Assembly (NCBI GenBank): GCA_949373095.1
Contig: CASIBY010000003.1
Coordinates: 109,631 to 173,630 of the forward strand
DNA: 64,000 bases
Source: Candidatus Poseidoniaceae archaeon
Lineage (GTDB): Archaea > Thermoplasmatota > Poseidoniia > Poseidoniales > Poseidoniaceae
Direction: 5' to 3'
Position 1 is the stretch's first letter, and each line of letters starts with the position of its first letter. Both the position numbers and the translations under genes were made by a program. This document shows, in pieces, positions 2,094 to 24,543 of the stretch. The notes under the pieces were generated by a model that had not been told where the DNA came from, ran no database searches, and saw nothing but the letters and a program-made list of their open reading frames with translations.

Positions 2094-2318
2094 TTACGAC
2101 ACATCATTGAGTTCAATGGTCAAGGTCGGCAACAAATATCTTGATATCAAAACAGAGTGGCGAACTATCTGGTCGGATGCGCCAAAATGAAATGAAAATG
2201 AGGACATACGAGCATCCAAATTTTAAAAAAATACAATTCAAACAACCAAACAATCTAAATTAACATAAATAACAAATCATATGATTATCTATAAGTCGGT
2301 AAATATGAGCGTATGGTT

Positions 2319-2326
2319 CATATACC
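2319..2326 (+). promoter_or_regulatory. probable TATA box of the glutamine synthetase gene
   Basis: The stretch CATATACC is centred about 30 nt before the ATG at 2353. The 250 nt upstream are conspicuously AT-rich compared with flanking coding DNA. The spacing would give a very short or absent leader, which supports starting the gene at 2353 rather than at the upstream ATG at 2281. Other TATA-like strings nearby make the assignment tentative. Confidence 0.4.
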
Positions 2327-2352
2327 GTCTGTATAACGAGTCATATGATACT

Positions 2353-3363
2353 ATGATAGATAAAGCAAAGTTAGAGTACATTTGGCTAGACGGGTACGAA
2401 CCTACACAGAATATGCGTAGTAAGACGCTTGTGAAGAACGATTTTTCAGGCGAACTTGAAGACTGCCCAGTATGGTGTTTTGATGGCTCATCAACGCGCC
2501 AAGCAGAAGGTGGCGATTCTGATTGCTTGCTTCAGCCAGTTGCAATCTTCCCAGACCCACAACGCTTCAACGGATATTTGGTGATGTGTGAAGTCATGAA
2601 TGCAGATGGAACTCCTCACGCCAGCAATGGACGTGCCACCATCGATGATGATGATGAAGACTTTTGGTTTGGATTTGAGCAAGAATATTTCATTATGGAT
2701 GTTGAAACAACACTTCCAGTTGGGTTCCCAGTTGGAGGATATCCAGGGCCTCAAGGTTTGTATTATTGTTCAGTGGGTGGGCGAAATACCCACGGGCGTG
2801 CCTTCGTTGAAGAGCATGCAGATCTCTGCCTTGACGCCGGAATTAACTTCGAAGGGATCAACCAGGAAGTCGCTTGCGGCCAGTGGGAATTCCAAGTCTT
2901 TGCAAAGGGTGCAAAACGTGCTGGCGACGAATTGTGGGTCGCAAGGTACCTTCTTGACCGTTTGACAGAGAGCTACGGATACTACATTGAATACCATCCA
3001 AAACCCGTCAAAGGAGACTGGAACGGATCCGGAATGCACGCCAACTTCAGCGATGGCCGGATGCGTGATGAAGGGGGAGAAGAACTCTTCAACAAGATAT
3101 GTGAAGAATTCGGAAAGAATGTCAAGAAGCACATGGATGTCTATGGTGCTTACAACGACCTTCGTTTGACCGGGCTTCATGAGACCCAATCCATCGACCA
3201 ATTTTCGTACGGCGTTTCTGACCGAGGGGCATCAATTCGCATACCTATTAGTACCGTAGATGATGGCTGGATTGGCCGTCTTGAGGACCGCCGACCTGCC
3301 TCAAACGGAGACCCTTACAAGATTGGCTCCGTGATTATTTCAACTACGAAAGCGGCTTATTGA
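2353..3363 (+). CDS. glnA: glutamine synthetase, type II (eukaryote-like GSII)
   Basis: Condenses glutamate and ammonia with ATP to glutamine, the main ammonium assimilation step in the cytosol. The start IDKAKLEYIWLDGYEP and the motif WCFDGSSTRQAEGGDSD are the GSII signature and not the GSI type found in most archaea. Metal- and substrate-binding segments follow: WFGFEQEYFIMD, FEGINQEVACGQWEFQV, KGDWNGSGMHANFS and FSYGVSDRGASIRIP. The 336-residue length is typical of GSII (about 350) and far below GSI (about 450). An upstream in-frame ATG at 2281 would add 24 atypical residues lying inside the AT-rich promoter. GSII is known mainly from eukaryotes and some bacteria, so lateral origin is likely. 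Confidence 0.93.
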   Translation: MIDKAKLEYIWLDGYEPTQNMRSKTLVKNDFSGELEDCPVWCFDGSSTRQAEGGDSDCLLQPVAIFPDPQRFNGYLVMCEVMNADGTPHASNGRATIDDDDEDFWFGFEQEYFIMDVETTLPVGFPVGGYPGPQGLYYCSVGGRNTHGRAFVEEHADLCLDAGINFEGINQEVACGQWEFQVFAKGAKRAGDELWVARYLLDRLTESYGYYIEYHPKPVKGDWNGSGMHANFSDGRMRDEGGEELFNKICEEFGKNVKKHMDVYGAYNDLRLTGLHETQSIDQFSYGVSDRGASIRIPISTVDDGWIGRLEDRRPASNGDPYKIGSVIISTTKAAY

Positions 3364-3644
3364 GTGGAACCATCTTGCTCGGCTTTCCGAGCACGAGCGA
3401 CGCCGATGATGACGGCAAGAATCACAGCGAGGGTCATGACATTCGCCACGATCATTGCCAGGGAGTCGACAAGGACACCGTACAGCAACCACATTGAGAG
3501 CGCAATGAACACAACGCCGAATGTAGGGAGTGAAATTCCTTCGTGACGCTTGTGCTTCCATACTTCAATGATTTGTGGAATCCACGCGATGATTCCAACA
3601 ACTCCGGCCAATAAACCGATGGCCTCAATCCATGCTTCAGCCAC
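3357..3644 (-). CDS. SemiSWEET / PQ-loop family small transporter
   Basis: A three-helix membrane protein of the MtN3/SWEET class that would dimerise to move sugars or another small solute passively. The sequence shows the PQ-loop motif GIIAWIPQIIEVWKHK in helix 1, followed by SLPTFGVVFIALSMWLLYG and a third helix. From the GTG at 3644 it has 95 residues, the usual SemiSWEET size. A longer open frame to 3743 overlaps the preceding gene and adds a basic, non-family extension, so I reject that start. It is the last gene of a minus-strand group after the NERD protein. Its stop slightly overlaps the convergent glutamine synthetase stop. Confidence 0.8.
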   Translation of the reverse strand: MAEAWIEAIGLLAGVVGIIAWIPQIIEVWKHKRHEGISLPTFGVVFIALSMWLLYGVLVDSLAMIVANVMTLAVILAVIIGVARARKAEQDGSTQ

Positions 3645-3691
3645 AAATGAGCGGCGACGCTCTTGGTGTTTGAATCCTCTCCTGGGCCCTA

Positions 3692-4597
3692 TTAGGGGCT
3701 TGAAGGGGGTTTTGAGAGGTTGAGACGAACGATGCCGGCCCATGGGACATCTTCAGGCTCCTTTCTTCCTACGACATGCATGCGCAGTGATTTGCCATAG
3801 GGGAGGGATGCTTTTACATGCTGTTGACCAAAGTATAATTCAACATTCGATGGTCCTTTTGACCAGAGTGAAAAGAACGAACGGGCATGAACTGCGTTTC
3901 CAAGCAAAGGCTCCCGGCATGAATCCTGCCATTGGGCAATGTCGTCGCCAAGCCCCAATCCAAGGACGTCTCCCTTGAGCATCAATCCCCCATTCAATTC
4001 AATTTCATCCCATGTACCAAACCCACTAACGAAGTCAAGCAAATTTTGATTGATTGGTCCTGGGTTTTCTTCTTCCAACAAGGTGATGAATTGGTTTTCG
4101 TTTTTGACATCTGAATTGAGAACACCAATGTTATTTGGCCATTCGAGTTTGTGATGAGTAAAAGCCAGTAAGACCCGAACAGTGATTTCCTCGTCATCAG
4201 GATGTCGTGCTTTGAACATCTCGTGGAGTATCTTTGCCTTTCGCTCAATACGCTGACTTACAGTGCTGTGGTTGTGGCTTGTTCCGTTGTTCCGCTCTTG
4301 GATGAACTCCTCTTTGTGATTGATGGAAAAAGAACCGGACCAGTGTTTTTGTTCAACGACCAGCATCGTCCCGCCTCCTACAATAACAAGGTCAATCTCT
4401 CGCTTCCCGCCCTGTTCTACGTCGGGGATACGCACTGATTCAAAGATGTTCCACCCGTTAGGTTTTCCGGCTGCTCTGCTGATTTTAGCCAACCGTTGCT
4501 CAGCTAATTCACCAGCACGGTGAATGTCGTCAGGAGGTGATGAAACCTTTCTCTGGCGCCACCATTTCCATCGTTGCGCCCATTTCATGGAGTTCAC
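3692..4597 (-). CDS. NERD-domain protein (nuclease-related)
   Basis: Residues from about 25 to 150 fit a NERD domain, a fold related to restriction-endonuclease-like enzymes. GKREIDLVIVGGGTMLVVEQKHWSGSF supplies the D...ExK arrangement expected of the catalytic core (Asp, then Glu-Gln-Lys), written here in part only. The region after about residue 180 is unassigned and ends in a small beta-rich segment. The ATG overlaps the stop of the HAD phosphatase gene by 4 nt, so the two are probably co-transcribed and translationally coupled. Substrate and role are not known; NERD proteins are thought to act in DNA processing. No helicase partner is adjacent. Confidence 0.75.
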   Translation of the reverse strand: MNSMKWAQRWKWWRQRKVSSPPDDIHRAGELAEQRLAKISRAAGKPNGWNIFESVRIPDVEQGGKREIDLVIVGGGTMLVVEQKHWSGSFSINHKEEFIQERNNGTSHNHSTVSQRIERKAKILHEMFKARHPDDEEITVRVLLAFTHHKLEWPNNIGVLNSDVKNENQFITLLEEENPGPINQNLLDFVSGFGTWDEIELNGGLMLKGDVLGLGLGDDIAQWQDSCREPLLGNAVHARSFFSLWSKGPSNVELYFGQQHVKASLPYGKSLRMHVVGRKEPEDVPWAGIVRLNLSKPPSSP

Positions 4598-5382
4598 CGA
4601 AGGAGTTGATCAACGCTTTCTACAACGAAGGCTGGTTGTTGTTCAGCCCCTTCGCTCAAAGCTGCTACATCTTCTCGAGTTGCTTCTCCTGACAAAACCA
4701 ACACGCCAACGACCCCTGCCCTCGTAGCCATCGCCATATCAGTATACAATCGGTCTCCGACCATGGCGCAGCGCCCAGGCTCTAATCCGAGTGCTTCAAT
4801 TTTGTGAAGAATCATTCCAGCATTTGGTTTACCCGTGATGTGAACTGGGCCGTGTCCGGTTGTTGCTTTGAACATGGCGAGATACGCTCCAACATCAGGA
4901 AGCCCTCCGTCTGGACTTGGGCACACCATGTCTGGATGGCTTGCTACCAATGGTACGCCAGCATGCATGTGAATGCTAGCGGTTGAAATTTTGTCATAGG
5001 TCAATTCTGTATCGTACCCCAAGACAACGTATTGCGGGGCAGAACTTGTTGTTGCAATACCTTGTTCTTCGAGCATGCTGCGCATCCCCTCAGTTCCGAC
5101 CATCCATGTCTCAGTGACGCCTTCTTTATTGAGCCACGCCAACAGGTCATGAGTTGACAAGAGGACATCTTCGGCTTCAGCCTCCAATCCTAAACCGTGT
5201 AATTTTTTCAGATATTGTTCAACAGATTTGGACGAATTGTTGGATAAAAAATACCGACGAACCCCGCGTTTTGTACACCTTTGAAGGAAGGCCTCTGCGC
5301 CCTCAATGAGGTCACCGCCGAGGTAAATCGTCCCGTCTAGGTCGAGAAAAACAGCGTCAATATCATTGAGTTGAGCGTCCAT
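4594..5382 (-). CDS. HAD-superfamily IIA phosphatase (NagD / 4-nitrophenylphosphatase-like)
   Basis: A cytosolic Mg-dependent phosphatase, candidate substrates being sugar phosphates or nucleotides. Motif I is AVFLDLDGTIYLGG near residue 10, motif II is YFLSNNSSKS (Ser/Asn), the Lys motif is ITGKPNAGMI, and motif III is CAMVGDRLYTDMAMATRAG. This order and the C2-type cap between motifs II and III define the IIA (NagD) subgroup. At 262 residues the length is normal. It begins 9 nt after the stop of the flavoprotein gene upstream and overlaps the NERD gene downstream, forming an apparent operon. Physiological substrate cannot be predicted. Confidence 0.87.
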   Translation of the reverse strand: MDAQLNDIDAVFLDLDGTIYLGGDLIEGAEAFLQRCTKRGVRRYFLSNNSSKSVEQYLKKLHGLGLEAEAEDVLLSTHDLLAWLNKEGVTETWMVGTEGMRSMLEEQGIATTSSAPQYVVLGYDTELTYDKISTASIHMHAGVPLVASHPDMVCPSPDGGLPDVGAYLAMFKATTGHGPVHITGKPNAGMILHKIEALGLEPGRCAMVGDRLYTDMAMATRAGVVGVLVLSGEATREDVAALSEGAEQQPAFVVESVDQLLR

Positions 5383-5391
5383 ATATTTCCC

Positions 5392-6771
5392 TCAGAACAT
5401 CAGTGTCTTGAACATAAACCAGGGTGAATGCAGGTTCTCTTGCGCTTCTTTACTTGCGATCATTTCGGTCATCATTTCTTGTATAACCGGTTTCTTTGAG
5501 GCCTTCTTGACAAACCAGTTCAGAAGCCATGCTTTCCGACTCATTCGTTGCATGCGGTGTGAATTGGTGAGTTCAGGGCCCAATGCATTCCAAAGTGCCT
5601 TTTGGTAATCCATGGGGGCTTTCTTTTCGAGAATATGTTGAGCAGCTAACTCGCCGCTGACCAATGCATTTCCAACACCTTCTCCACTGAAGGGGTCAAC
5701 CAGTGTAGCGGCATCTCCAACCAAGAAGACGCGATTCGCAGCAGATCTTCGGGGTTGCAATTCAGATTTCTTCCGTGGTGAGCCAAAGGGCAATTGCCAG
5801 CCTCGTCCAGACCCTTCAATCATTGTTGCATCAGCAAATCGGTCTTTGAACAATTTGTGGTTTGCAATCACGTCAGCTTGTAGAGCTTTGAGCTTCTTCT
5901 TTTGCTTGTCCATTTCGGACATGACCATTCCAATGCCAACGTTAACTGTTCCTTCTGAAACTGGGAAGAGCCAGAAATATCCGGGGAGGACAGAGTCGAC
6001 AAAATGAATCTCGATGTCACCGACTTGAGACTCACATCCTTTGACGCCCGTCCAGTATTCACGATAACCAGCACAGTAGTGGTCGCGGTCTAGCATGGGC
6101 TCTTCGTATGTATCTTCAAGCATGGATTTGGCGACCGGGCAACGGTACCCCGCAGCGCCAACGAGGTTTGATGCGTGAAACGTCAGTTCTTCGCCACCCC
6201 TTCCGCCAATTCTGACAACAACTCCCGAGCCGTAGCGGGCATCCCCACTTTTTGGCCCGGGATCTTCGCCACCGTTGCCATCATCGTAGAGAACTTGGCG
6301 AACTTCTCCGCCCTGAATCACAGCTCCACCCGCCTCTCGTACGGTCGATTGTACTTCTCGGAACAGGAGCGTGTCAAATTGTTCTCGAGGCAGTGCATAA
6401 CCCGCTTCAAGGCGAGCAACGTCTTCTTCTGGAAGAGCGACACGAACCTCATGTCCTTTCGGGGAAGAGAAGAGAATGCCTGTGACGCGAAAGTGAGGGG
6501 TCTGCTCGAGATGTTCTTTTACGCCTAATCTTTGAACGTGACTCAACGATTTACCACCAACGGCATCTCCGCAAATCTTGTCTCTTGGCCAAATGTCTTT
6601 TTCAATTAACAAAACACGTTGACCACCCATTGCCAGATAGCCAGCAGCCGATGCCCCACCGGGGCCGCCTCCAACAACAATAGTGTCGAATGAGGTTCCG
6701 TTTTCAGGGAGTTCTCCCGTGTCAATGGGATTGTCCCATGCGACTGAGTTAACAGGAGATGCACCGCTCAT
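5392..6771 (-). CDS. geranylgeranyl reductase family FAD-dependent oxidoreductase
   Basis: Probably saturates isoprenoid chains, as in maturation of archaeal ether lipids or of menaquinone side chains. The N-terminus has the Rossmann FAD motif VGGGPGGASAAGYLAMGG and an acidic strand end (LLIEKD), then KICGDAVGGK, the conserved Cys-Gly-Asp-Ala segment of the family. The second FAD motif is VFLVGDAATLVDPFSGEGVG near residue 350. The length of 459 is slightly longer than typical (about 390-430). The family also includes halogenases and hydroxylases, so the reaction is inferred. It heads the minus-strand group and is divergent from the EamA transporter over about 60 nt. Confidence 0.8.
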   Translation of the reverse strand: MSGASPVNSVAWDNPIDTGELPENGTSFDTIVVGGGPGGASAAGYLAMGGQRVLLIEKDIWPRDKICGDAVGGKSLSHVQRLGVKEHLEQTPHFRVTGILFSSPKGHEVRVALPEEDVARLEAGYALPREQFDTLLFREVQSTVREAGGAVIQGGEVRQVLYDDGNGGEDPGPKSGDARYGSGVVVRIGGRGGEELTFHASNLVGAAGYRCPVAKSMLEDTYEEPMLDRDHYCAGYREYWTGVKGCESQVGDIEIHFVDSVLPGYFWLFPVSEGTVNVGIGMVMSEMDKQKKKLKALQADVIANHKLFKDRFADATMIEGSGRGWQLPFGSPRKKSELQPRRSAANRVFLVGDAATLVDPFSGEGVGNALVSGELAAQHILEKKAPMDYQKALWNALGPELTNSHRMQRMSRKAWLLNWFVKKASKKPVIQEMMTEMIASKEAQENLHSPWFMFKTLMF

Positions 6772-6831
6772 GAAGACTCCACAGAAGGGGCACTCCTTGA
6801 GGATATGCGTTGTTCATGAAGATGAACCACC

Positions 6832-7833
6832 ATGCTCATGACCCCGACGAACCACCCAGCGGGCATGGCGGAGGGAGAAAATCAGACGGTTTCTCAATCA
6901 AATCCGACCCGGAGAACCGCTGCGCTGGTCCTATTCAGTGTCACGCTCGTTTGGGGTGCAACATTCATCTGGATGAAACAGGCACTGAATGCTCTTGAAG
7001 GTGAACTTGAGATATATGGAACGGTCCCCATTGTTGCGTTTTTAGTCGGAGCACGTTTTTTCATCGCCATGGTTCTGATGCTGTTGTTTTTCTCCAAGGC
7101 GCGGGAGGCGGTGAAGGAAAAGGAATTGTGGCGCGGTGGAGCACTTTTGGGCGGATTAATGCTCGTTGGATTTGTTACGCAAATGGTGGCTTTGGAAGAG
7201 ATTAATCCTTCAACGTCTGCGTTTCTTACCTCTCTCTACGTCGTCATGACTGCAATGCTCAGCGTTCGCATGACGCAACACCCTCCTCGGGCAACCCTCT
7301 ACTGGGGCGTGTTTCTCGCCACCTTCGGTGCTGGATTTATTGGAGGCCCCCCGCATCTTTCCTGGGGCTGGGGAGAAATTGTTACAGTGTTTTCAGCCTT
7401 CTTTTTCGCCCTTCATATCGTGTTCACTCAAAACCTCACAAAGCGCTACGACCCAATCGGTCTTTCTCTCACGTCCTTTGTTGTGGTTTGCGTTGGGGCT
7501 TGGCTGATTATGCTCATAGTCTCCGGCGAAATAATGTCAATGATCCCCGCAGTTCTATCGACCAAAGGGGTCCTTTTCCCCCTCGTACTGCTCGGGGTCG
7601 GCGGCTCATTTTTCTGCCTTCTAGCACTCAACATGTTTCAGCGGCACATGCATCCGGTCCAGGCAGCAATTATCTATGCATTTGAACCGGTCTGGGCCAC
7701 AATTTTTGGCCTCATCCTAGGGCTCGTTCCATGGACTTGGTGGATCTTGATTGGAGGTTCCGTCCTTCTTGGTGGCAATCTGTTGGTTGAACTCACCACG
7801 CCTCAAGACGACGATGACAAAGAGAACCCTTGA
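6832..7833 (+). CDS. EamA/DMT-superfamily transporter
   Basis: A membrane permease with ten predicted helices arranged as two EamA repeats of five. The first repeat begins ALVLFSVTLVWGATFIWMKQ and the second contains LVLLGVGGSFFCLLALNMFQ and AFEPVWATIFGLILG, a classic DMT signature with the E-P-V-W segment. The C-terminus is acidic and cytosolic (DDDDKENP). A second ATG at 6865 is an equally plausible start since the first eleven residues are not conserved in type. The stop overlaps the next open frame by 4 nt. Metabolites such as amino acids are common DMT cargo; the real substrate is unknown. Confidence 0.87.
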   Translation: MLMTPTNHPAGMAEGENQTVSQSNPTRRTAALVLFSVTLVWGATFIWMKQALNALEGELEIYGTVPIVAFLVGARFFIAMVLMLLFFSKAREAVKEKELWRGGALLGGLMLVGFVTQMVALEEINPSTSAFLTSLYVVMTAMLSVRMTQHPPRATLYWGVFLATFGAGFIGGPPHLSWGWGEIVTVFSAFFFALHIVFTQNLTKRYDPIGLSLTSFVVVCVGAWLIMLIVSGEIMSMIPAVLSTKGVLFPLVLLGVGGSFFCLLALNMFQRHMHPVQAAIIYAFEPVWATIFGLILGLVPWTWWILIGGSVLLGGNLLVELTTPQDDDDKENP

Positions 7834-7868
7834 AGATGACCTTCCTCGTGGAAGGAGCGTTGAGGGAC

Positions 7869-9047
7869 ATGTCAAAAGATAACTCGGATCACAAATTTGC
7901 CAGTAAAGCAGTCCATAGCGGCACACAGCACATTGGCGATGCAGTCAACACTCCGATCTTCCAATCCTCAACATACAAATTGACCGACGAGCGTTATGCT
8001 GGGTGGGCTGCAGGGGCTCAACACACGCTTCTTTACGGCAGGCTTTCTTCGGTGAATTCAGATGCAGTAGCTCAGAAACTAACCGCATTAGAAGAAGGTG
8101 AAGACGCAGAAACCTTCGCATCAGGGATGGCAGCCATTTCAGCAACTATGCTTTCCTTCCTCAATCAAGGCGACCACATTGTGGCAAGCGCAGACGTGTA
8201 CGGAGGAACATACGGCCTCTTGACAGAAGAGTTGACACGCTTTGGAATCGATGTCAGCATGGCAAACATGCAAGACCCATCTTCTTACGAAGCGGCTATT
8301 CAGCCGAACACCAAGATTCTCTACATTGAGACCTTGACAAATCCCGTGTTGAAGGTATGCGACATCCCCGCCATGGTTGAAATCGGTCGCCGACACGATC
8401 TGATGGTCATCATCGACAACACCTTTGCGTCCCCTTGGGGCTGCAAACCGCTTACCATGGGCGTTGACTTAGTCATCCATTCCACAACAAAATACCTCGG
8501 TGGGCACTCCGATATTATCGGCGGTGCAGTTGTCGGTTCACGAGAACTCATCGCTCAAATTTTCATGCGTAAGGTTCACTTTGGAGGAAGTCCAGACCCA
8601 CATGCCTGTTACCTCCTAGAACGTGGAATGCGCACCCTTGATGTTCGGATGCCACGCATCTGCACCAACGCAGCAACACTTGCAGAGCGCCTCTCAGAAC
8701 ACAACCATGTGGACTACGTTTTGCACACTAGTCTAGAAACCCATCCCGATTATGAAGTTGCAAACCGCATCCTTCCCAAGGGCTCGGGCATGGTTGCCTT
8801 TGTAGTCAAAGGTGGAGACGATGCGGCACTCAAATTCATGCGTGGACTTGATATGATTTACGAAGCGACAAGTCTCGGGGGCGTTGAATCGTTGATTGAG
8901 TGTCCGTTTAACTCCAGCCACATGTTCGTCCCAGAAGACGTGCGACATTCCGCAGGCGTCGTGCCTGGATTTGTTCGTCTCAGCATTGGTATCGAAGATG
9001 CCGAAGACCTTTGGAACGACATCAATGACGCCCTAAACACCCTCTGA
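7869..9047 (+). CDS. cystathionine gamma-synthase / gamma-lyase family PLP enzyme
   Basis: A fold-type I PLP enzyme of trans-sulfuration (Cys/Met metabolism). The start MSKDNSDHKFASKAVHSG precedes PIFQSSTYKLTD, the family N-terminal signature. YGRLSSVNSDAVAQKL contributes the cofactor-binding Tyr-x-Arg from the neighbouring subunit. FASGMAAISATMLSFLNQGD and VDLVIHSTTKYLGGHSD carry the phosphate-binding Ser/Gly and the Schiff-base Lys. The active site ends with YEATSLGGVESLIECP. Length 392 is standard. Sequence alone does not separate cystathionine gamma-synthase, gamma-lyase and methionine gamma-lyase. An upstream ATG at 7830 would overlap the transporter gene. The LysE exporter downstream may be linked to amino-acid homeostasis. 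Confidence 0.88.
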   Translation: MSKDNSDHKFASKAVHSGTQHIGDAVNTPIFQSSTYKLTDERYAGWAAGAQHTLLYGRLSSVNSDAVAQKLTALEEGEDAETFASGMAAISATMLSFLNQGDHIVASADVYGGTYGLLTEELTRFGIDVSMANMQDPSSYEAAIQPNTKILYIETLTNPVLKVCDIPAMVEIGRRHDLMVIIDNTFASPWGCKPLTMGVDLVIHSTTKYLGGHSDIIGGAVVGSRELIAQIFMRKVHFGGSPDPHACYLLERGMRTLDVRMPRICTNAATLAERLSEHNHVDYVLHTSLETHPDYEVANRILPKGSGMVAFVVKGGDDAALKFMRGLDMIYEATSLGGVESLIECPFNSSHMFVPEDVRHSAGVVPGFVRLSIGIEDAEDLWNDINDALNTL

Positions 9048-9069
9048 CCGAATATTTGGGCGTGTGGGA

Positions 9070-9672
9070 ATGGACTGGGCTGCGCTCATCGCTCTTTTGG
9101 TGTTCATCACCCCAATGGTCTTTTCACCTGGACCCAACAACATGCTATGTGCTGCTCATGGTGCGCAGCACGGCTTCCGAGCCACCTTACCCCTCACCTG
9201 GGGAATGGTGGTTGGATGGTCAACCCTCGGTCTTGTAGTTGGCATGGTAACAGCGTCAATTGAGTCAAATAAAGCGGTGTTCGACGCACTAACATATGCT
9301 GGGGCGGCTTACATTGCCTATCTTGGAATTTCAATCGCTCGTAATCAGGCTAAGTCTGCCGGAGAGGCCAAAGAAACACAACGCCTAGGATTTCGCACAG
9401 GAGCAGCCTTACAACTTGTTAACGGCAAGGCATGGGTGCATTTCCTCGCTCTTATGGCGACATGGGGAACTCTATTTGGCGAGGGGATTGGAAGCAAGGC
9501 CCTTCTTGTTATGGTCAATGCCTTAGCAGGCTACCCAGCTGTTCTAACATGGGCACTGTTCGGAACGCGCCTAAGCATCATGATGAATTCACCGAGAAAT
9601 GCAAAGCGCCTCAACCTCAGCCTTGGACTCTCTCTTGTTGCTGTTGCCTTTTGGGTCGTCATGCCCCGCTGA
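9070..9672 (+). CDS. LysE/RhtB-family amino-acid exporter
   Basis: A six-helix membrane protein that exports amino acids or related compounds. The N-terminal helix ends with the family signature FSPGPNNMLCAAHGAQHGFR (the G-P-N segment). The second half has GAALQLVNGKAWVHFLALM, matching the conserved Q-x-x-N-P/G-K region. The ATG at 9070 gives 200 residues, the usual length; a GTG two codons upstream is possible. It follows the PLP enzyme by 22 nt on the same strand, so the pair may form an operon that balances sulfur amino acids. The gene is convergent with the next one, with 4 nt between stops. Confidence 0.85.
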   Translation: MDWAALIALLVFITPMVFSPGPNNMLCAAHGAQHGFRATLPLTWGMVVGWSTLGLVVGMVTASIESNKAVFDALTYAGAAYIAYLGISIARNQAKSAGEAKETQRLGFRTGAALQLVNGKAWVHFLALMATWGTLFGEGIGSKALLVMVNALAGYPAVLTWALFGTRLSIMMNSPRNAKRLNLSLGLSLVAVAFWVVMPR

Positions 9673-9676
9673 AGAA

Positions 9677-11422
9677 CTACTCTCCAATTAAGGTACGAAG
9701 GGTCGAAAACGCTTCATGCCACGCTTCTTGACACGCAGCGACCTCATCCTCACTTGCAGTCAGCAATGTCTGTCCGGTCTCATGAAGATGCTTTGTCGCA
9801 GGAAACCATACGCCGCCTCGGTCGCGTGCATTGGAATCAAAATGCCACTCTTGTCCGGTTGAACGATTGACAGCAACAAGCCATGCCCACGCCGCTGCCG
9901 AGCGGTCAATGGAGTCATGTCGACCGGTCGCTTCACGTTCCACCGACCCAATTCCCAAGGTGAGTCCCTTTACCGTGAGTGAATGAATCATTGCCGCAGG
10001 GCCGTCGTTTGATTCCAAGGATGGGAACCGTGCTTTCTGCCGTGCGAGTTCAGTAGCCTTGTCCAAACCCTTGAGGAATTTTCCAAAAGGTTTGGGAGAT
10101 GAATGTTGTTGCTTCCAAATAGCGGCGGCTTCGTCTCCTTCAAGGCCGATTCCAGCAAGACTTCGCTCCCCGTGAGTTCCCCAAAATGCGGTAAGAATAT
10201 CTCCACATGTGACATTCTTGAGAATTCGAATTCCACCACTATCACGTTGCTCAGTGGTTCCTTTTTGCTCAATCCTAAGCGAATCATTATCCTCGTGAGG
10301 ATGGTCTATTGCAGCGCCAAGAATATGGGCGGTGAGTGTTCGCTCGTCTGGTGAGCCAGCAAAAGATTCCAACTCCTCGGCGATCAATTCTACATCGGTG
10401 CCAGGCATCCAAGTTTCACCGATAAGAAGGCCGTCTTCAATCCCTTCAAGGGTTGTGGATTTTATGGCGTTAGCAATCAACCCTTCATTCAGGGTTAACC
10501 CCTGCCATGCGTCTACAACTCTATCGATCCCTTCGCTGCATGCTTCAGGTAAAATTTTGTCTTCAGGCCATCTCTTTGGAAGATAAAAAGCCTCAACAGA
10601 TAGAATGGACGGAAGTAGAGGTGGTAACATGGACAATGCGAGGTGATGAATGAACGATGCGTCCTTTTTCGAGAACGAGTTGAGAGATTCAAAATCTATT
10701 CCCACGACTGGGCCGTGATGGAAACGGAGGGTCACAAACCCTTCTTCGCCGCCTTTTCTCTGCATGACCTCAGCAGGGTCCAATCGGGCAGTCACCCAGA
10801 CCGTTTTTCCGTCAACGATTGATTTAGTCATGTCAAATCGGGAGCGCTTGAGTACGTCTGCAAGCCATTCTTCTGGAGGGTTTGGGTTCGGACCAGTGCA
10901 AACAAAACCACCTTCCCAACTGAAGAAATACATTCCCTTCTTTGCGTGGTCTTCCCATGGTAACATACGAAGGGTGAGATTGGAAAAGTTCTGTATTCCA
11001 GCGAGGTAACCCGGCTTCCCATCTCCTCGTCGGACATAAGAGGCAGAACCAAACGAACTGGAGTTGAATTGTCCAACAAGCGTAAATTGCTCATCATGAG
11101 ACGCGTGGAGTGAGCCAGCGAATGCCTTTGCAACCACGTCACCGCGGCGCGCCATCATGCGTTTAGAGAGCCACCCCAGGTCATTCTTTTTCTTGATGAT
11201 GCGCTCGATTTCTCTCAAGGTTTTAGTGACGGGGTCAGTGCGCCCCCAACTCAATTTCCCCTTGAAACTCATCGCGGGAAGGTGGCCACGAGGACTCTCT
11301 TGGAAACTGCTGAGTTGACGAGCGAGTTTTTTCGCAGTTGCCTCGTTTGCCTGCTTGGTCCCACGCATTTTCATGCGTTGTTTTTTCTGGCCAGGAAATT
11401 CCACTTTGGATGGTCCCGCCAT
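9677..11422 (-). CDS. conserved-looking hypothetical protein, 581 aa
   Basis: I do not recognise a family. The frame is long, uninterrupted and has codon use like its neighbours. There is no signal peptide or membrane helix. The first 30 residues are basic and rich in Lys, Arg and Gln, then a mixed alpha/beta body follows with patches such as SWGRTDPVTKTLREIERIIK and several Trp residues. A possible late region (residues 480-540) contains AAAWAWLVAVNRSTGQEWHF. The start could also be the ATG 16 codons downstream (MKMRGTKQ). It is divergent from the PqqB-like gene over about 100 nt. Its function cannot be inferred from context. Confidence 0.6.
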   Translation of the reverse strand: MAGPSKVEFPGQKKQRMKMRGTKQANEATAKKLARQLSSFQESPRGHLPAMSFKGKLSWGRTDPVTKTLREIERIIKKKNDLGWLSKRMMARRGDVVAKAFAGSLHASHDEQFTLVGQFNSSSFGSASYVRRGDGKPGYLAGIQNFSNLTLRMLPWEDHAKKGMYFFSWEGGFVCTGPNPNPPEEWLADVLKRSRFDMTKSIVDGKTVWVTARLDPAEVMQRKGGEEGFVTLRFHHGPVVGIDFESLNSFSKKDASFIHHLALSMLPPLLPSILSVEAFYLPKRWPEDKILPEACSEGIDRVVDAWQGLTLNEGLIANAIKSTTLEGIEDGLLIGETWMPGTDVELIAEELESFAGSPDERTLTAHILGAAIDHPHEDNDSLRIEQKGTTEQRDSGGIRILKNVTCGDILTAFWGTHGERSLAGIGLEGDEAAAIWKQQHSSPKPFGKFLKGLDKATELARQKARFPSLESNDGPAAMIHSLTVKGLTLGIGSVEREATGRHDSIDRSAAAWAWLVAVNRSTGQEWHFDSNARDRGGVWFPATKHLHETGQTLLTASEDEVAACQEAWHEAFSTLRTLIGE

Positions 11423-11522
11423 AATGCTCCCACCTCCACCGGTACGGCTTGAGTGTTTGAGGCCTTCTCTTGATGGTGCTCTCTTTGAAAAGCACTATCA
11501 TGTGGTACATGTACCCTTAGTT

Positions 11523-12374
11523 ATGGTGACGGCAACCCTTCTTGGCACTGCCCAAGATGGCGGCCTCCCTCAAGCGGGATGCCAGCAACAATGCTGCAAT
11601 AGCCTGCCCTTGAGCGCCCACCGTTATCCGGTCAGCTTAGGTTTAGTTGACAAAGAAGGGAACGGCCACCTCATTGACACGACCCGACATCTTGCCGGGC
11701 AACTGTCCATTTGGAACCATCCTCCGCTTTCATCCATCTTCTTGACCCATGCTCATTTTGGCCATGTTGACGGTTTGGGACTTCTTGGAAAGGAGACTAT
11801 GAATGCTCAGGGATTGAACCTCCACGTATCTCCTTCAATGTTCCACTTAATGGAAGAAACGCCGCAATGGGCTCTCATGCTTGCCCAAGGCGTCTTCTCA
11901 GAACATGTATTCATGCACGCTGACCGCATTATGCTCACAGAGGAATTGATTGTCGAACCGGTCCATGTCCCACACCGAGCAGAACTCTCTGACATGCACG
12001 CATTCGTTGTTCGCGGACCAAACCATTCCCTCCTTTATTTGCCCGACCATGATGATTGGAATAGTACCCTAAAGCGCCATCAATGCACGACAATTCGCGA
12101 ATGGTTGAGTCTGCTTAACGTTGACATTGCTTTGATTGACGGCACTTTTTGGGATATGGACGAACTTCCTGCGCTACGACAAAACAACGTCCCCCACCCT
12201 CCAGTGAGCGAGACCCTGGAGTTGCTCGGGAAGAAGAGAGAAAGCGACCCCGAGATATATTTCATACACCTCAATCACACAAACCCCCTCCACGATGAAG
12301 CGAGCAATGCTTTTGCAACCGTTGCTTCAATGGGCTGGGGTGTAGCAAAGCAAGGCCAACAGTTCATCCTGTGA
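11523..12374 (+). CDS. PqqB-like metallo-beta-lactamase-fold hydrolase
   Basis: The N-terminus TATLLGTAQDGGLPQAGC is close to the start of PqqB (G-x-x-x-G-G-x-P-Q-x-x-C), and the metal-binding motif appears as LTHAHFGHVDGL, i.e. H-x-H-x-x-H with Gly-His at the usual Asp-His position. Later metal-ligand candidates are VPHRAEL, LYLPDHDDWN and FIHLNHTNPL. The start at 11523 removes an out-of-family N-terminus that overlaps the divergent gene. PqqB participates in pyrroloquinoline quinone synthesis in bacteria, but no other pqq gene is visible here, so a different oxidative or hydrolytic role is likely. The replaced Asp in the HxHxDH motif suggests changed metal use. It is convergent with the symporter gene, overlapping by 11 nt. 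Confidence 0.78.
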   Translation: MVTATLLGTAQDGGLPQAGCQQQCCNSLPLSAHRYPVSLGLVDKEGNGHLIDTTRHLAGQLSIWNHPPLSSIFLTHAHFGHVDGLGLLGKETMNAQGLNLHVSPSMFHLMEETPQWALMLAQGVFSEHVFMHADRIMLTEELIVEPVHVPHRAELSDMHAFVVRGPNHSLLYLPDHDDWNSTLKRHQCTTIREWLSLLNVDIALIDGTFWDMDELPALRQNNVPHPPVSETLELLGKKRESDPEIYFIHLNHTNPLHDEASNAFATVASMGWGVAKQGQQFIL

Positions 12375-18448: not shown

Positions 18449-21241
18449 ATGTCTGTTGAACGACGCACCCAATCCGGCCTGCTTGTAACGCTCTTGTTGC
18501 TGACTGCTCTTGCTCCAATTACCATGGTTCAAGCCCAACCCACATCCCCCTCGGAATTCTACTATGGTGTTGAATACGATTGGTCCAGCCTTGATGACGA
18601 CTTTTCAAACTTGAGTGGCATGGACATCGAAGAACTACTCATTGAAATCATGGCCGATGCAGACGCTGCAGGGTTTAACCTAGATGTTGGGCAACTGACA
18701 ACGGGTTCATCAAATGTCTATGTGCACCAAACCGAAGATATCACTATGCAAACCATCCAAGACGGTAACGGAGATGATATCGAAGTGTGGAGTCGAACCA
18801 GCGATGTCGTCCTACGACATGGCATCCTCTTTGACGGGGTTCTTCTAACCGACTGGGACGAAGCAGCATCATTTGGTGGCGACAATAATTCCTTTGACAT
18901 CGACGTGATCAGCCAGTTTGAGAACGTTCTCACCGTGGACATTCTTTACACAGAGTACCTCACTGATGACTACAATCTTGTAGGCGCCGACATGGATCTC
19001 GACCTGACTGTGAGTGCTGACATGTCACTTGATGTTGATATCGCACTGGAAGGCGGCGGAGAAGAAATCACTGTTGACTTTGCTACGGGAATCAGCTTTG
19101 GGTACAGCATGGAATCAACCGATGCAGTTTGGCGTCTTGACGCTGAAAGCCCAATCTACATCGAGGCTTCTGACAATTACGAGACAAATTGGAATTGCGC
19201 TGATGACGAGGAAGAATACGGAGTTAACGCGTATCCATGGGGCGGAGTCGCTGTCAATGACCTCTGCGGAGAAATAGGTGGAACCTACACTGGCGCAGCC
19301 GATTATGAAATTTACTTCACAGGACTTCCAACCGAAGAATTCGGACTTGACTCAGGAGAATTTGATTTGACGGTTTCCGATGCTTTCGCGCACTCGGGCA
19401 ACTACGACGAGATGTTTGATGGAGAATTCCGATTCTCGATGGAACAGGACATGGAAGGAAACGACTTTGAGGTCGATCTCGGAAACGGCGAAACCGTTGA
19501 CGCTGTCGCCTGTGTGGATTGCCCTCCAGGAAATCCAGTGATGTTTACCATGATGGGCAATGTTCTTGCACAGAGCACCCTATCTTTCGGGGAAGAAATC
19601 GCTGAAGACCTTGAGGCGAGTTTCCAAGATTCTATTGTTGATACCATCTTTGACGAATGGGCGTCTGACCTCGCAGAATCCAATGACGATGGCCCTGATG
19701 AGTGGCAGTGTGATGATGGCGAGTGGATCCCAGAATGGTGGGTCAACGACGGCTTCGAGGACTGCAGCGACGGGTCTGACGAATCTGGCCTTGTCGTCAA
19801 CTCCTACTACTCCGGCGAGACTGTAATTGTTTATGGGGAATTCAATACTGATGAACTTCCCGACCTAGGCGTTAGTGTGTTCACCTGTGACGACTCAGAT
19901 GAAATAAATTGGGCGGATGTTAACGATGGAACTCAACACTGCAGCGGTGGCGAAGATGAACAAAATCAAGACGGCACTCGTATGTTTACATGTAACGACG
20001 GAACTGAGATTTCCTGGGACTCCATAAACGACTACAGCGCTGATTGTTCAGAATTTGAGGACGAAGGAGCAGCAGCAGTTTATCACCTCCAAGTAACATC
20101 AAGTTACAGCGATGGAACAGTGTTTGGCCTGAACGACTACACCGTTTGCGATGCTCATTCAGATTATATTTGCGATTTCTCTTCCCCCAACACCTATTTT
20201 AACGCTGACAATGTATTTTCTGCCGATAGCCATGGACCATTAGAATATTGTATCAGCGCAGTCATTACCACTGGCTCAGGTGACGTTATGATGGAGTCAC
20301 ACTCCGAATGCGGAACTATATGGGTGGGCCATCAAGGAGCACTCTATGACCTTCGGTCCGATGGGATGACCCTCAACTGGGAGGCCCAATATTCTAACTA
20401 TCTTTCATCTAACGATGCTGAAATGCACATTAGCGTTCAAGATGACCAAGGAAACGAAGTATTTACAGAAACAAGCCAACTTATGCATGATGGTGACTCT
20501 GAGTGGTTCCAAGGCGAATTTGATGTTTCAACTGAAGGAGAATACTGTATCGTTATGACCCTAATTGAAGAGGGAGAGACGGAAGCCTATCAAACGGAGA
20601 CGAGATGTGAAGAGGTGAGCACTGAAGGCGAACCAAGTGACCGCCTCATGACGATTTTGGAAGCATTCACCGACTCCAGCCTCCAAAATGTTGCAGAAGA
20701 CTTTATGGAACAACTTAGTACTACTTTCGAAGATCTTGAAGAAAACGAAATTCCTGAATTCCCTTACTCTGATGGTATGTGGGCTCCGTTGTGGAGTACA
20801 GAGCATGCTACAATCATCGGCGTTGGACTTTACGCTATGGATGACGATGAGGAAAAGTACGTCATCGCTGGACCAGCAACAACTGGATACAGTCAAGACT
20901 TGCCTATGACCTTCATGTCCATTCGCTACTTGACCGGCGTGCCTGCACAAGAGGCCCAAACTGAAATGGTTGACTTTGAGGATATTGAAGACATCGTGGA
21001 CATTGAAGATCACGACCTCAGCGCTCTTGAAGACGCACTAGAACAAGCCGGTGCGGATACCTCTACTCTTGACCTTGACCAAGGTGACGGTACAGGCGAC
21101 GGAACCTCAGCGCCCGACAGTGCAGTTGATGTCGCAGAAGACTCGGGACTTCTCCCGTTCTTGTCACCGCTCTCGGTGTTGGCCATGGTGGGAATTGCAG
21201 CTCTTGCTGGCAACTCCCGTCGCCGAGAAACTAACGAGTGA
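18449..21241 (+). CDS. large secreted surface protein with LDL-receptor-A-like acidic repeats and C-terminal anchor
   Basis: A 930-residue protein with a Sec signal (LLVTLLLLTALAPITMVQA) and a C-terminal hydrophobic helix followed by a basic tail (AGNSRRRETNE), so it is probably surface-anchored. The body is strongly acidic and beta-rich. Around residues 420-545 three related segments occur: WQCDDGEWIPEWW...FEDCSDGSDE, then FTCDDSDEIN...CSGGEDE, then FTCNDGTEIS...DCSEFEDE. They keep the acidic Ca-binding end of LDL-receptor class A modules but only two of six Cys each. The region near residues 900 has a low-complexity Asp/Thr/Gly linker. The next gene overlaps its stop (GTGA). Function may be adhesion or ligand binding; this is inference. 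Confidence 0.75.
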   Translation: MSVERRTQSGLLVTLLLLTALAPITMVQAQPTSPSEFYYGVEYDWSSLDDDFSNLSGMDIEELLIEIMADADAAGFNLDVGQLTTGSSNVYVHQTEDITMQTIQDGNGDDIEVWSRTSDVVLRHGILFDGVLLTDWDEAASFGGDNNSFDIDVISQFENVLTVDILYTEYLTDDYNLVGADMDLDLTVSADMSLDVDIALEGGGEEITVDFATGISFGYSMESTDAVWRLDAESPIYIEASDNYETNWNCADDEEEYGVNAYPWGGVAVNDLCGEIGGTYTGAADYEIYFTGLPTEEFGLDSGEFDLTVSDAFAHSGNYDEMFDGEFRFSMEQDMEGNDFEVDLGNGETVDAVACVDCPPGNPVMFTMMGNVLAQSTLSFGEEIAEDLEASFQDSIVDTIFDEWASDLAESNDDGPDEWQCDDGEWIPEWWVNDGFEDCSDGSDESGLVVNSYYSGETVIVYGEFNTDELPDLGVSVFTCDDSDEINWADVNDGTQHCSGGEDEQNQDGTRMFTCNDGTEISWDSINDYSADCSEFEDEGAAAVYHLQVTSSYSDGTVFGLNDYTVCDAHSDYICDFSSPNTYFNADNVFSADSHGPLEYCISAVITTGSGDVMMESHSECGTIWVGHQGALYDLRSDGMTLNWEAQYSNYLSSNDAEMHISVQDDQGNEVFTETSQLMHDGDSEWFQGEFDVSTEGEYCIVMTLIEEGETEAYQTETRCEEVSTEGEPSDRLMTILEAFTDSSLQNVAEDFMEQLSTTFEDLEENEIPEFPYSDGMWAPLWSTEHATIIGVGLYAMDDDEEKYVIAGPATTGYSQDLPMTFMSIRYLTGVPAQEAQTEMVDFEDIEDIVDIEDHDLSALEDALEQAGADTSTLDLDQGDGTGDGTSAPDSAVDVAEDSGLLPFLSPLSVLAMVGIAALAGNSRRRETNE

Positions 21242-22238: not shown

Positions 22239-22304
22239 AGATTTAATCCGTCGGGGGCGCAACCGCTATTTAAGCCGCGCCATGTGGGGGAATTGGGTGC
22301 TACC

Positions 22305-23786
22305 ATGGCGAAACCGAAAACATCAGCAGAAATCGCACGAGAAGAAGCTGAAAATAACCAATTAGAGAACATGCTGGGCGGAGCTTTTGGAGACATATCC
22401 GGTCTCGAACAATCGCCTGAAGAAGAAGCAGAACCCGTTCAAGCAAATGATGAATCTCCCGAAGAAGTCATAGAGGATTCACCCGCTGCATCACCATCTG
22501 ATGATGAACTCGCCGAAACTGCTCCTTCAGGTCCTCCATCGGGGCCACCGTCCGGTCCTCCTTCAGGTCCACCCAGCGGTCCACCTTCAGGCCCTCCATC
22601 GGGGCCACCATCCGGTCCTCCTTCAGGTCCACCCAGCGGTCCACCTTCAGGCCCTCCATCGGGGCCACCGTCCGGTCCTCCTTCAGGTCCACCCAGCGGT
22701 CCACCATCTGACCCCCCGTCTCCCGAAGAGCCAGAAGGTTCTCCGAGTGAAGTCCCTAGTGTTGAAGAAACAAAAGATATGGCGCCCGCTCCAATCGTTG
22801 AAGAACCTGCTCAAGAACCTGAAGAAGACCTAATGGTTACAGAATCTATTCCTGTGGCCGAACCAGAACCAATATCAGAACCTCAGCCAAAAGAATCTGA
22901 AGAACCAGCCCCACAGGTCGAGGAGAGTTCTGAAGAACCAGCCCCACAGGTCGAGGAGAGTTCTGAAGAACCGGTTGAAACCATTCCACCGTCTCCAGAA
23001 GCCTCACAGGCCCCAGAAGCCTCACAGGCCTCAGAAGCCATGCTCAACGCACTCGCAGAAAAAGAGGCGGAGCTTGAAAGGCTTCACATGGAAAATGCCC
23101 GTTTGCGTCAATCTGTTGTTGGAGCAACAGAAGTCATCGAGCAGTTGGAGGAGCCGCCTATGCCCCCTCTTGTTGAAAACAACATTGTCATTCCCGCCCA
23201 CGTTGTTTCTGACTTTGTACGCATGGGGAGGCAACTTGACCGAGAACATTTGATCCGAGCAACAATGGGAAGTTTGGCTATGATCTCTCCCGACCAACCC
23301 AACATTATGGTGTCAAGCCGTCATATGGCTATGCTTCCTAGAATGAATGAACGAAGTTTGTGTGCTGGCCAACTTGGTGGGACTTCGCCACGAGGCTCCC
23401 CTACCGACTGGCATGTAATGGAGGTCATTCTTGCATCGGTATCGGTAGTAACCGGTGGGCCTGCGGCTGTCATTCACATGCATGCGCCCCACACAACCAC
23501 CGCCAGCTGTGAAAAGGACCTTGTATTACTCAATCCGATCGATGAAATCGGTAAACATCACATCGGCAAAATCATCATTGTAGACCCTGATGACGAGCAG
23601 CCTGATGATTACCTTCGCCAGGTTAGGGAAGCGCTTACTCAAGGAAACATGCGTTGTGTTGTTGTCCGTGGCAACGGCGCCTACGCAGTGGGTGCGGATT
23701 TTGACCAAGCATGGGCTAATGCAGCAATCCTTGAACACAGCATGCAAATCCATCTCTTGAGTCGGCAAGCCAACCTCAAACTTTGA
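22305..23786 (+). CDS. class II aldolase/adducin-domain protein with long Pro/Ser/Gly repeat linker
   Basis: Residues from about 290 to 493 fit the class II aldolase/adducin fold: LIRATMGSLAMISPDQPNIM, then VSSRHMAMLP, the metal-site segment AAVIHMHAPHTTTAS (H-x-H) and CVVVRGNGAYAVGADFDQAW plus a final His in ILEHSMQIHL. Upstream is a short charged N-terminus, a run of 15 GPPS tetrapeptides, an acidic Glu/Pro/Val region with a duplicated EEPAPQVEESS unit, and a short coiled coil (ALAEKEAELERLHMENARLR). Such a disordered N-terminal half is unusual for aldolases and suggests a scaffold or regulator. Start is ATG 22305; the frame opens at a GTG at 22284. Confidence 0.78.
   Translation: MAKPKTSAEIAREEAENNQLENMLGGAFGDISGLEQSPEEEAEPVQANDESPEEVIEDSPAASPSDDELAETAPSGPPSGPPSGPPSGPPSGPPSGPPSGPPSGPPSGPPSGPPSGPPSGPPSGPPSGPPSGPPSDPPSPEEPEGSPSEVPSVEETKDMAPAPIVEEPAQEPEEDLMVTESIPVAEPEPISEPQPKESEEPAPQVEESSEEPAPQVEESSEEPVETIPPSPEASQAPEASQASEAMLNALAEKEAELERLHMENARLRQSVVGATEVIEQLEEPPMPPLVENNIVIPAHVVSDFVRMGRQLDREHLIRATMGSLAMISPDQPNIMVSSRHMAMLPRMNERSLCAGQLGGTSPRGSPTDWHVMEVILASVSVVTGGPAAVIHMHAPHTTTASCEKDLVLLNPIDEIGKHHIGKIIIVDPDDEQPDDYLRQVREALTQGNMRCVVVRGNGAYAVGADFDQAWANAAILEHSMQIHLLSRQANLKL
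22525..22704 (+). repeat. three 60-bp tandem repeats encoding (GPPS)n
   Basis: Three almost identical 60-bp units lie in register; they differ mainly by CCG/CCA and GGT/GGC wobble changes. Each codes for five Gly-Pro-Pro-Ser tetrapeptides written with non-uniform codons, so the 12-bp amino-acid period is masked at DNA level while the 60-bp period is sharp. This indicates recent unit duplication by slippage or unequal recombination. It is inside the aldolase-domain gene and keeps frame. Confidence 0.9.
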
Positions 23787-23910: not shown

Positions 23911-24543
23911 ATGGACAATACATTTGAAGTAGAAATCGCAGACAAATCTGGCCACAGTGTGGTTCAGATGACCCAAGAACAAATCGTTGAGAAGGCCGAA
24001 AGCGCTCCAGGAACCTGGGTGTTCGTAAACGACCAACTCGTCAGCACCGCTGACGTTGCCGACATGAACATTGACGTGGGTAGCCGTATTCGCCTCATGC
24101 CCGGTTTGGTTGGTGGCAACGCCCCAACTTTCAATGTCGAAATTGCAGACAAGTCTGGCCACTCCGAAGTGGTCATGACCCAAGCTGAAATCGCAGACAA
24201 GGCTCAAAGCGCCCCAGGAACCTGGGTGTTCGTGAACGACCAACTCGTCAGCACCGCTGACGTTGCCGACATGAACATTGACGCGGGTAGCCGTATTCGC
24301 CTCATGCCCGGTTTGGTTGGTGGCAACGCCCCAACTTTCAATGTCGAAATTGCAGACAAGTCTGGCCACTCTGAAGTGGTTATGACCCAAGCTGAAATCG
24401 CAGACAAGGCTCAAAGCGCCCCAGGCACATGGGTGTTCGTGAACGACCAACTCGTCAGCACCGCTGACGTTGCTGACATGAACATTGACGCGGGTAGCCG
24501 TATTCGCCTCATGCCCGGCTTGGTTGGTGGCAACCACTGCTGA
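23911..24543 (+). CDS. polyubiquitin-like protein: three head-to-tail ubiquitin-like (beta-grasp) units
   Basis: The 210-residue product is Met-Asp-Asn followed by three 69-residue units and nothing else. Units 2 and 3 are identical in protein over the first 67 residues; unit 1 differs at about ten positions. Each unit ends PGLVGG; junctions are GG-NAP and the protein terminates GG-NHC. Aligned by eye and without gaps, FVNDQLVSTADVADMNIDAG plus the following 12 residues to GG match ubiquitin residues 45-76 at 11 of 32 positions (Phe45, Gln49, Leu50, Asp58, Asn60, Ile61, Ser65, Leu69, Leu73, Gly75, Gly76). Lys48 and Lys63 are replaced. Secondary-structure pattern (hairpin, helix, strands) fits beta-grasp. 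Being a ubiquitin precursor is inference; MoaD/ThiS/SAMP-type units are the alternative. No conjugation enzyme lies nearby. Confidence 0.7.
   Translation: MDNTFEVEIADKSGHSVVQMTQEQIVEKAESAPGTWVFVNDQLVSTADVADMNIDVGSRIRLMPGLVGGNAPTFNVEIADKSGHSEVVMTQAEIADKAQSAPGTWVFVNDQLVSTADVADMNIDAGSRIRLMPGLVGGNAPTFNVEIADKSGHSEVVMTQAEIADKAQSAPGTWVFVNDQLVSTADVADMNIDAGSRIRLMPGLVGGNHC
23920..24540 (+). repeat. three 207-bp tandem repeats (ubiquitin-like units)
   Basis: Unit borders are 23920, 24127 and 24334. Units 2 and 3 differ by about six synonymous bases in the first 201 nt and by none that change an amino acid; only the last two codons differ (Ala-Pro versus His-Cys). Unit 1 is more diverged in its first third. 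Protein-level constancy with silent drift points to purifying selection plus gene conversion or recent duplication. Confidence 0.92.

Follow-up and report, generated by a model that had tools for sequence, protein, structure and literature searches.

Tandem ubiquitin-like units in a predicted precursor gene of Poseidoniales archaea, co-occurring with a minimal ThiF-type E1 and a JAMM protease

Tandem ubiquitin-like proteins (Ubls) that travel with an E1 and a JAB protease are known from bacteria, where operon type 6e encodes 1-3 Ubls in tandem (Iyer, Burroughs and Aravind 2006, PMC1779556). The Poseidoniales genes described here resemble type 6e in their tandem Ubls (1-3 units of 70-75 residues in type 6e), their rhodanese-less E1 and a JAB/JAMM protease fused to or beside that E1. 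They differ in domain order, the JAB being fused N-terminal to the E1 in type 6e and the JAMM following the E1 in Poseidoniales; in content, since type 6e includes an inactive E2/RWD domain and a treble-clef protein and neither was recognised in Poseidoniales; and in lineage, type 6e occurring in Proteobacteria, Cyanobacteria and Actinobacteria, whereas within its own phylum the present E1 was found only in Poseidoniales (sample of 390 genomes). BilA also has two Ubls (PMC11354881), but BilABCD relies on a two-domain E1 (BilD) and an E2 (BilB), as opposed to the single-domain Poseidoniales E1, beside which no BilB-like gene was recognised. The PRTRC system comes close in other respects: of all NCBIfam models its ThiF matches the Poseidoniales E1 best (6.6e-19), the two have a W-x-D-L motif in common, and its protein C is likewise about 69 residues long. 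However, the E1 falls far below that family's cut-off (68.2 vs 144.75 bits), and protein C, which lacks Gly-Gly, was rejected as a sister of the units for want of any similarity (hhalign E 0.21).

Among archaea, Caldiarchaeum (CsUb, CsE1, CsE2, srfp, CsRpn11) also combines a JAMM protease with a Ubl precursor tailed past its Gly-Gly, and its Rpn11 is known from experiment to cleave that precursor exactly after Gly-Gly (PMC6043591); CsUb, though, has just one unit and shares its operon with an E2 and a small RING protein, while Poseidoniales have several units, and neither an E2 nor a RING protein was recognised with them. The SAMP/Urm1/HvJAMM1 systems share with Poseidoniales a beta-grasp Ubl with terminal Gly-Gly, an E1 and a JAMM, and they have no E2, just as none was recognised in Poseidoniales, but they use single-unit genes and a larger UbaA/MoeB-type E1, and Poseidoniales additionally carry a ThiS-family protein and a MoeB-type E1. 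Eukaryotic polyubiquitin offers a parallel in layout, with head-to-tail Gly-Gly units, a variable unit number and a short tail on the last unit; Poseidoniales units, in contrast, are not always identical, and they are accompanied by a minimal E1 and a JAMM in place of cysteine-protease deubiquitinases, with no recognised E2 or E3.

The gene with which we begin lies in a window of 64,000 nucleotides, the whole stretch of DNA analysed, from a Candidatus Poseidoniaceae genome. An earlier sequence-only reading had described it as three identical polyubiquitin-like units, each ending in Gly-Gly, and translation together with Tandem Repeats Finder bore out the frame, the coordinates, the 69-residue units ending LVGG and the three-residue tail:

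23911..24543, + strand: tandem ubiquitin-like gene, predicted precursor, conserved in Poseidoniales; 210 aa, made up of three units and a tail
23911..24117, + strand: unit 1, 69 aa, C-terminal LVGG; 86% identity with units 2 and 3
24118..24324, + strand: unit 2, 69 aa, C-terminal LVGG; its 66-residue core is modelled by AlphaFold2 as a beta-grasp fold
24325..24531, + strand: unit 3, 69 aa, C-terminal LVGG; same protein sequence as unit 2
24532..24540, + strand: tail Asn-His-Cys (NHC), three residues past the last Gly-Gly, predicted to be cleaved off

The frame reads MDNTFEV...LVGG, NAPTFNV...LVGG, NAPTFNV...LVGG, NHC, and the DNA has a 207-base period (2.7 copies, 95% match). The claimed identity holds for units 2 and 3, between which exactly six silent differences and no amino-acid change were counted, in line with the roughly six of the earlier reading; it does not extend to unit 1, which is set apart by 12-15 silent differences and a further 15 in changed codons. 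The genome belongs to a Marine Group II archaeon of the Poseidonia type: the same 66 unit residues are present in a Candidatus Poseidoniaceae MAG, the next best match being Candidatus Poseidonia alphae. Just upstream (22284-23786) lies a gene in which a repetitive Gly-Pro-Pro-Ser linker and an acidic region are joined to a class II aldolase-like domain; further off, a 930-aa predicted surface protein (18449-21241) matched LDL-receptor class A repeats at 1.7e-5, which is unexpected for an archaeon.

By sequence, the resemblance of a unit to ubiquitin is weak and not significant: the 11 identities to ubiquitin residues 45-76 noted by eye are correct, but hhalign aligned 36 columns at 31% identity with a probability of 18%. 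Single units matched no Pfam family. The whole tandem protein reached 20.6 bits against Urm1 (cut-off 21.8) and 24.3 against SAMP1 (cut-off 60) only by summing over repeats, and its Pfam, NCBIfam and PDB matches (Urm1, SAMP1, polyubiquitin) were discarded as inflated in that way. The AlphaFold2 model of one unit, built from a 50-sequence alignment, has a pLDDT of 85.9, a less certain Gly-Gly tail and the order strand-strand-helix-strand-strand-helix-strand; Foldseek placed MoaD, ubiquitin, SUMO and ThiS first among PDB structures, followed by TtuB, SAMP2 and Urm1, with probabilities of 0.9-1.0 for the top Ubl matches. TM-scores are slightly higher for sulfur carriers (TtuB 0.65 vs about 0.48 for ubiquitin). 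The predicted beta-grasp fold class, expected by the earlier reading, is firm while the exact subfamily is not: E-values are modest (best 5e-3), though probabilities reach 1.00.

The window gene is not a chance arrangement, since a profile search detected units in 142 of 319 Poseidoniales genomes. We collected 90 distinct complete unfused genes from fetched Poseidoniales loci, with 181 units in all: 28 genes have one unit, 43 two, 18 three and 1 four, and a two-unit gene stands on the closed MG-II chromosome CM001443.1. The last glycine is invariant, preceded by glycine in 148/181 units, alanine in 32/181 and phenylalanine in 1/181, such that the Gly-Gly conservation expected by the sequence-only reading applies to the final residue and only partly to the penultimate one. 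A tail follows the last glycine in 89/90 genes, with 41 different sequences of 1-14 residues (usually 1 to 6), and in many genes of genus g1 it ends in Cys. A conserved [GA]G followed by a variable tail is the sequence pattern of a putative maturation site. In most fetched g1, g5, g7 and g8 loci the gene is in synteny with the same neighbours, one coding for an RpoP-like zinc ribbon and one resembling replication factor C. In a subgroup of genus g5 (L066, L067, L084-L086, L091-L093) both units end in Ala-Gly and not Gly-Gly, and a unit homologue was also seen in a MAG labelled Acidimicrobiaceae (L304, PBSS01000008.1), where mis-binning or transfer may account for it.

Such a protein could also remain uncut, acting as a multivalent scaffold or binding protein like the ISG15- or BilA-type tandem Ubls and using its last glycine alone. 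Unlike polyubiquitin, the two- to four-unit genes of other species have units whose identity falls to 55%, and units differing by up to 45% could each bind a different partner; furthermore, in genera g9 and g11 the E1 itself forms one protein with the units (L072, L073, L194). Against this, [GA]G is kept in 180/181 units and is as strict in internal as in terminal ones, the linkers that follow it vary in sequence and in length (2 to 9 residues), units 2 and 3 of the window gene are identical in protein despite their silent changes, and single-unit genes are common (28/90). We consider an uncut scaffold improbable.

The sequence-only reading had noted no E1 or JAMM gene in view, which is true within the window; this genome has both on a different contig (locus L177):

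G000:C1:21976-22605, - strand: minimal ThiF-type E1, 209 residues; overlaps the JAMM gene
G000:C1:21440-21979, - strand: JAMM protease, 179 residues
G000:C1:21194-21430 (L177 6195-6431), - strand: conserved protein of about 78 residues, probably helical, just after the JAMM gene; candidate adaptor

At the loci fetched, the JAMM gene (about 180 residues) comes after the small E1, usually overlapping it, and in most the ~78-residue gene comes next. The 209-residue E1 consists of one adenylation domain and matches Pfam ThiF at 8.7e-17; it retains the GxGGxG, D-x-D-x-V, K and SC residues, and its invariant Cys aligns with the Cys of MoeB and PRTRC ThiF. In the JAMM, E61, H99, H101, S109 and D112 are invariant across 26 sequences and make up the E, HxH, S, D catalytic motif. 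Its AlphaFold2 model (pLDDT 94.6) returned only JAMM/MPN proteins, or complexes containing them, among its first 15 PDB matches, albeit at low TM-scores of 0.19-0.40; Rpn11, AMSH, Sst2, CSN and the Caldiarchaeum Rpn11-ubiquitin structure are all among them.

Units and small E1 track each other closely across the 319 genomes: 129 have both, 161 neither, and 29 are discordant (13 + 16; Fisher P about 1e-54, phylogeny uncorrected), some discordance being expected because most of these genomes are incomplete MAGs. The pair also appears together in isolated positives of mostly negative genera (G034 in g2, G060 in g3) and in one of two g4 genomes (G063). Physical linkage points the same way. In genera g9 and g11 two units are fused to the E1, with the JAMM following, in three Rosetta-stone fusions (L072, L073, L194); one unit directly precedes E1 and JAMM in L192; at many loci of a second family, f2, a single unit adjoins E1 and JAMM, and f2 units also stand beside an E1-JAMM single chain; and L228 (G060) has two protein-identical units with a C-terminal extension, then E1, JAMM and the small gene. 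E1 and JAMM form one chain at 8 loci, always E1 then JAMM. In the window's species the unit gene does not adjoin E1-JAMM, and the two loci lie apart. From this genetic linkage, the co-occurrence and fusion of units with a ThiF-type E1, we regard the E1 as a candidate activator of the units.

A plain, recent duplication within a housekeeping Ubl such as SAMP or MoaD, with no special system attached, would explain the one-, two- and three-unit alleles among close relatives. However, a distinct ThiS-family protein is encoded in the same genomes, no Pfam model matches single units, the gene tracks the dedicated E1-JAMM pair, and it is absent from most members of g2 and g3; the idea is largely refuted and very improbable. 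More generally, the interpretation of the gene as a cleavable Ubl precursor is supported, because the beta-grasp fold, the varying unit number, the near-invariant glycine with its variable tail and the co-occurring E1 and JAMM all agree with it.

What the released units would do is less settled. The units could be sulfur carriers, adenylated by the E1 and converted to thiocarboxylates that serve a cofactor, a tRNA or a small molecule, with the JAMM doing no more than trimming the tail. The E1 is of ThiF/MoeB type, an E2 was not recognised, the nearest folds include TtuB, ThiS and MoaD, and Cys ends many g1 tails; in addition, JAMM trimming of sulfur-carrier tails has a precedent in Pseudomonas siderophore pathways. 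Yet a ThiF search of 23 representative genomes found one MoeB-type E1 in each (carrying a rhodanese-like extension at its C-terminus where the full sequence was read), and a separate ThiS-family protein accompanies it in 23/23, genomes devoid of the present system included, so a second housekeeping sulfur carrier is less likely. The small ThiF protein, about 210 to 250 residues long, is a second one in the unit-bearing genomes among these 23: it is present in G000, G001, G014, G028, G034, G063, G064, G117, G124, G100, G139, G158, G153, G160 and G170, is fused to units in G161, G162 and one of the two G170 loci, and was not found in G033, G049, G057, G062, G091 or G163. Next to E1-JAMM in the window's genome there is no gene for a rhodanese, a desulfurase or a biosynthetic enzyme; the neighbours there are a beta-oxidation enzyme, regulators and glycosyltransferases; thio-sugar synthesis, considered on account of the flanking glycosyltransferase genes, was rejected given this mixture of housekeeping genes. 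Amplification of the units, too, suggests demand for a stoichiometric tag. Taken together, we judge the sulfur-carrier reading unlikely, though worth keeping in mind.

The reading that we prefer is a JAMM-processed precursor whose units are activated by the E1 and conjugated to proteins. The dedicated JAMM, encoded on the other contig, would cut after the terminal glycine of each unit and release monomers of about 69 residues with a free C-terminal glycine, which the minimal ThiF-type E1 would adenylate; the activated tag would most likely be joined to target proteins, either directly or via a hypothetical E2-like partner, and the JAMM could also remove it from them. We give this full chain a probability of roughly 0.6, and hold its first part, namely precursor, E1 and JAMM, to be highly probable. 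Conjugation is less certain because no E2 was recognised, although SAMPs and Urm1 need none. Also counted against the full chain are the lack of a recognised E3, the 32 Ala-Gly units, the divergence between units, the slightly higher sulfur-carrier TM-scores, the separate loci in the window's species and a co-occurrence figure uncorrected for phylogeny.

Within the E1-JAMM operon neither an E2 nor an E3 was recognised, and the E2 profile PF00179 gave no match in a search whose control also stayed silent. Two protein families, X and Z, flank E1-JAMM in some genomes (L188, L220, L221, L226; L073, L181, L184, L192, L210, L212, L213, L219, L221, L224, L227, L228). Family X is fused to a Ubl or adjoins one; family Z (320-640 aa) has CxxC pairs and one invariant later Cys, and its PDB matches were designed beta-propellers only, over 30 positions. 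Comparison with E2, RWD and Pfam gave neither family an assignment, and an E2-like identity suggested by a shared C...D...S...L pattern found no PDB or Pfam support.

The window's genome holds a second Ubl island elsewhere (L125, G000:C4:36000-54000, positions 1753-12127), with ThiF-type E1 proteins of 518 and 504 aa, a 719-aa Cdc48-like AAA+ protein, a Ubl-Ubl-JAMM fusion and two other Ubl fusions. Three of its genes start with one and the same 95-residue Ubl leader, which ends VAGG, varies hardly at all in its DNA and is reminiscent of ubiquitin fusion genes, and one fusion partner has, by eye, an E2-like PNPDD motif with no Pfam match. The E1 of this island is excluded as the partner of the tandem units by its rarity, the 518-aa protein or a relative being found in 11/319 genomes.

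Largely uncultured, Marine Group II archaea abound in surface seawater. For one Marine Group II genome a 2014 survey listed RING and UCH genes only (PMC4327156), and our search of the literature on Poseidoniales and ubiquitin found no relevant publication. The unit gene, with the E1 and JAMM that it is nearly always carried with, suggests a ubiquitin-like system that has not been described. In the literature searched, the arrangement is new for archaea, as the sequence-only reading had anticipated; it is not new in kind, given the bacterial tandem Ubls with E1 and JAB (PMC1779556), from which the Poseidoniales system is set apart by lineage, domain order and sequence family. Whether Poseidoniales have a dedicated system that tags proteins without an E2, by means of a paired JAMM, a one-domain E1 and a polyubiquitin-style precursor whose gene originated independently of eukaryotic polyubiquitin, seems to us evenly balanced. 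With its minimal set of Ubl, E1 and JAMM and a fusion order that depends on the genus, the system offers, in compact form, a natural test of how the processing of Ubls came to be coupled to their conjugation before eukaryotes, and it bears on whether polyubiquitin-type precursors arose more than once.
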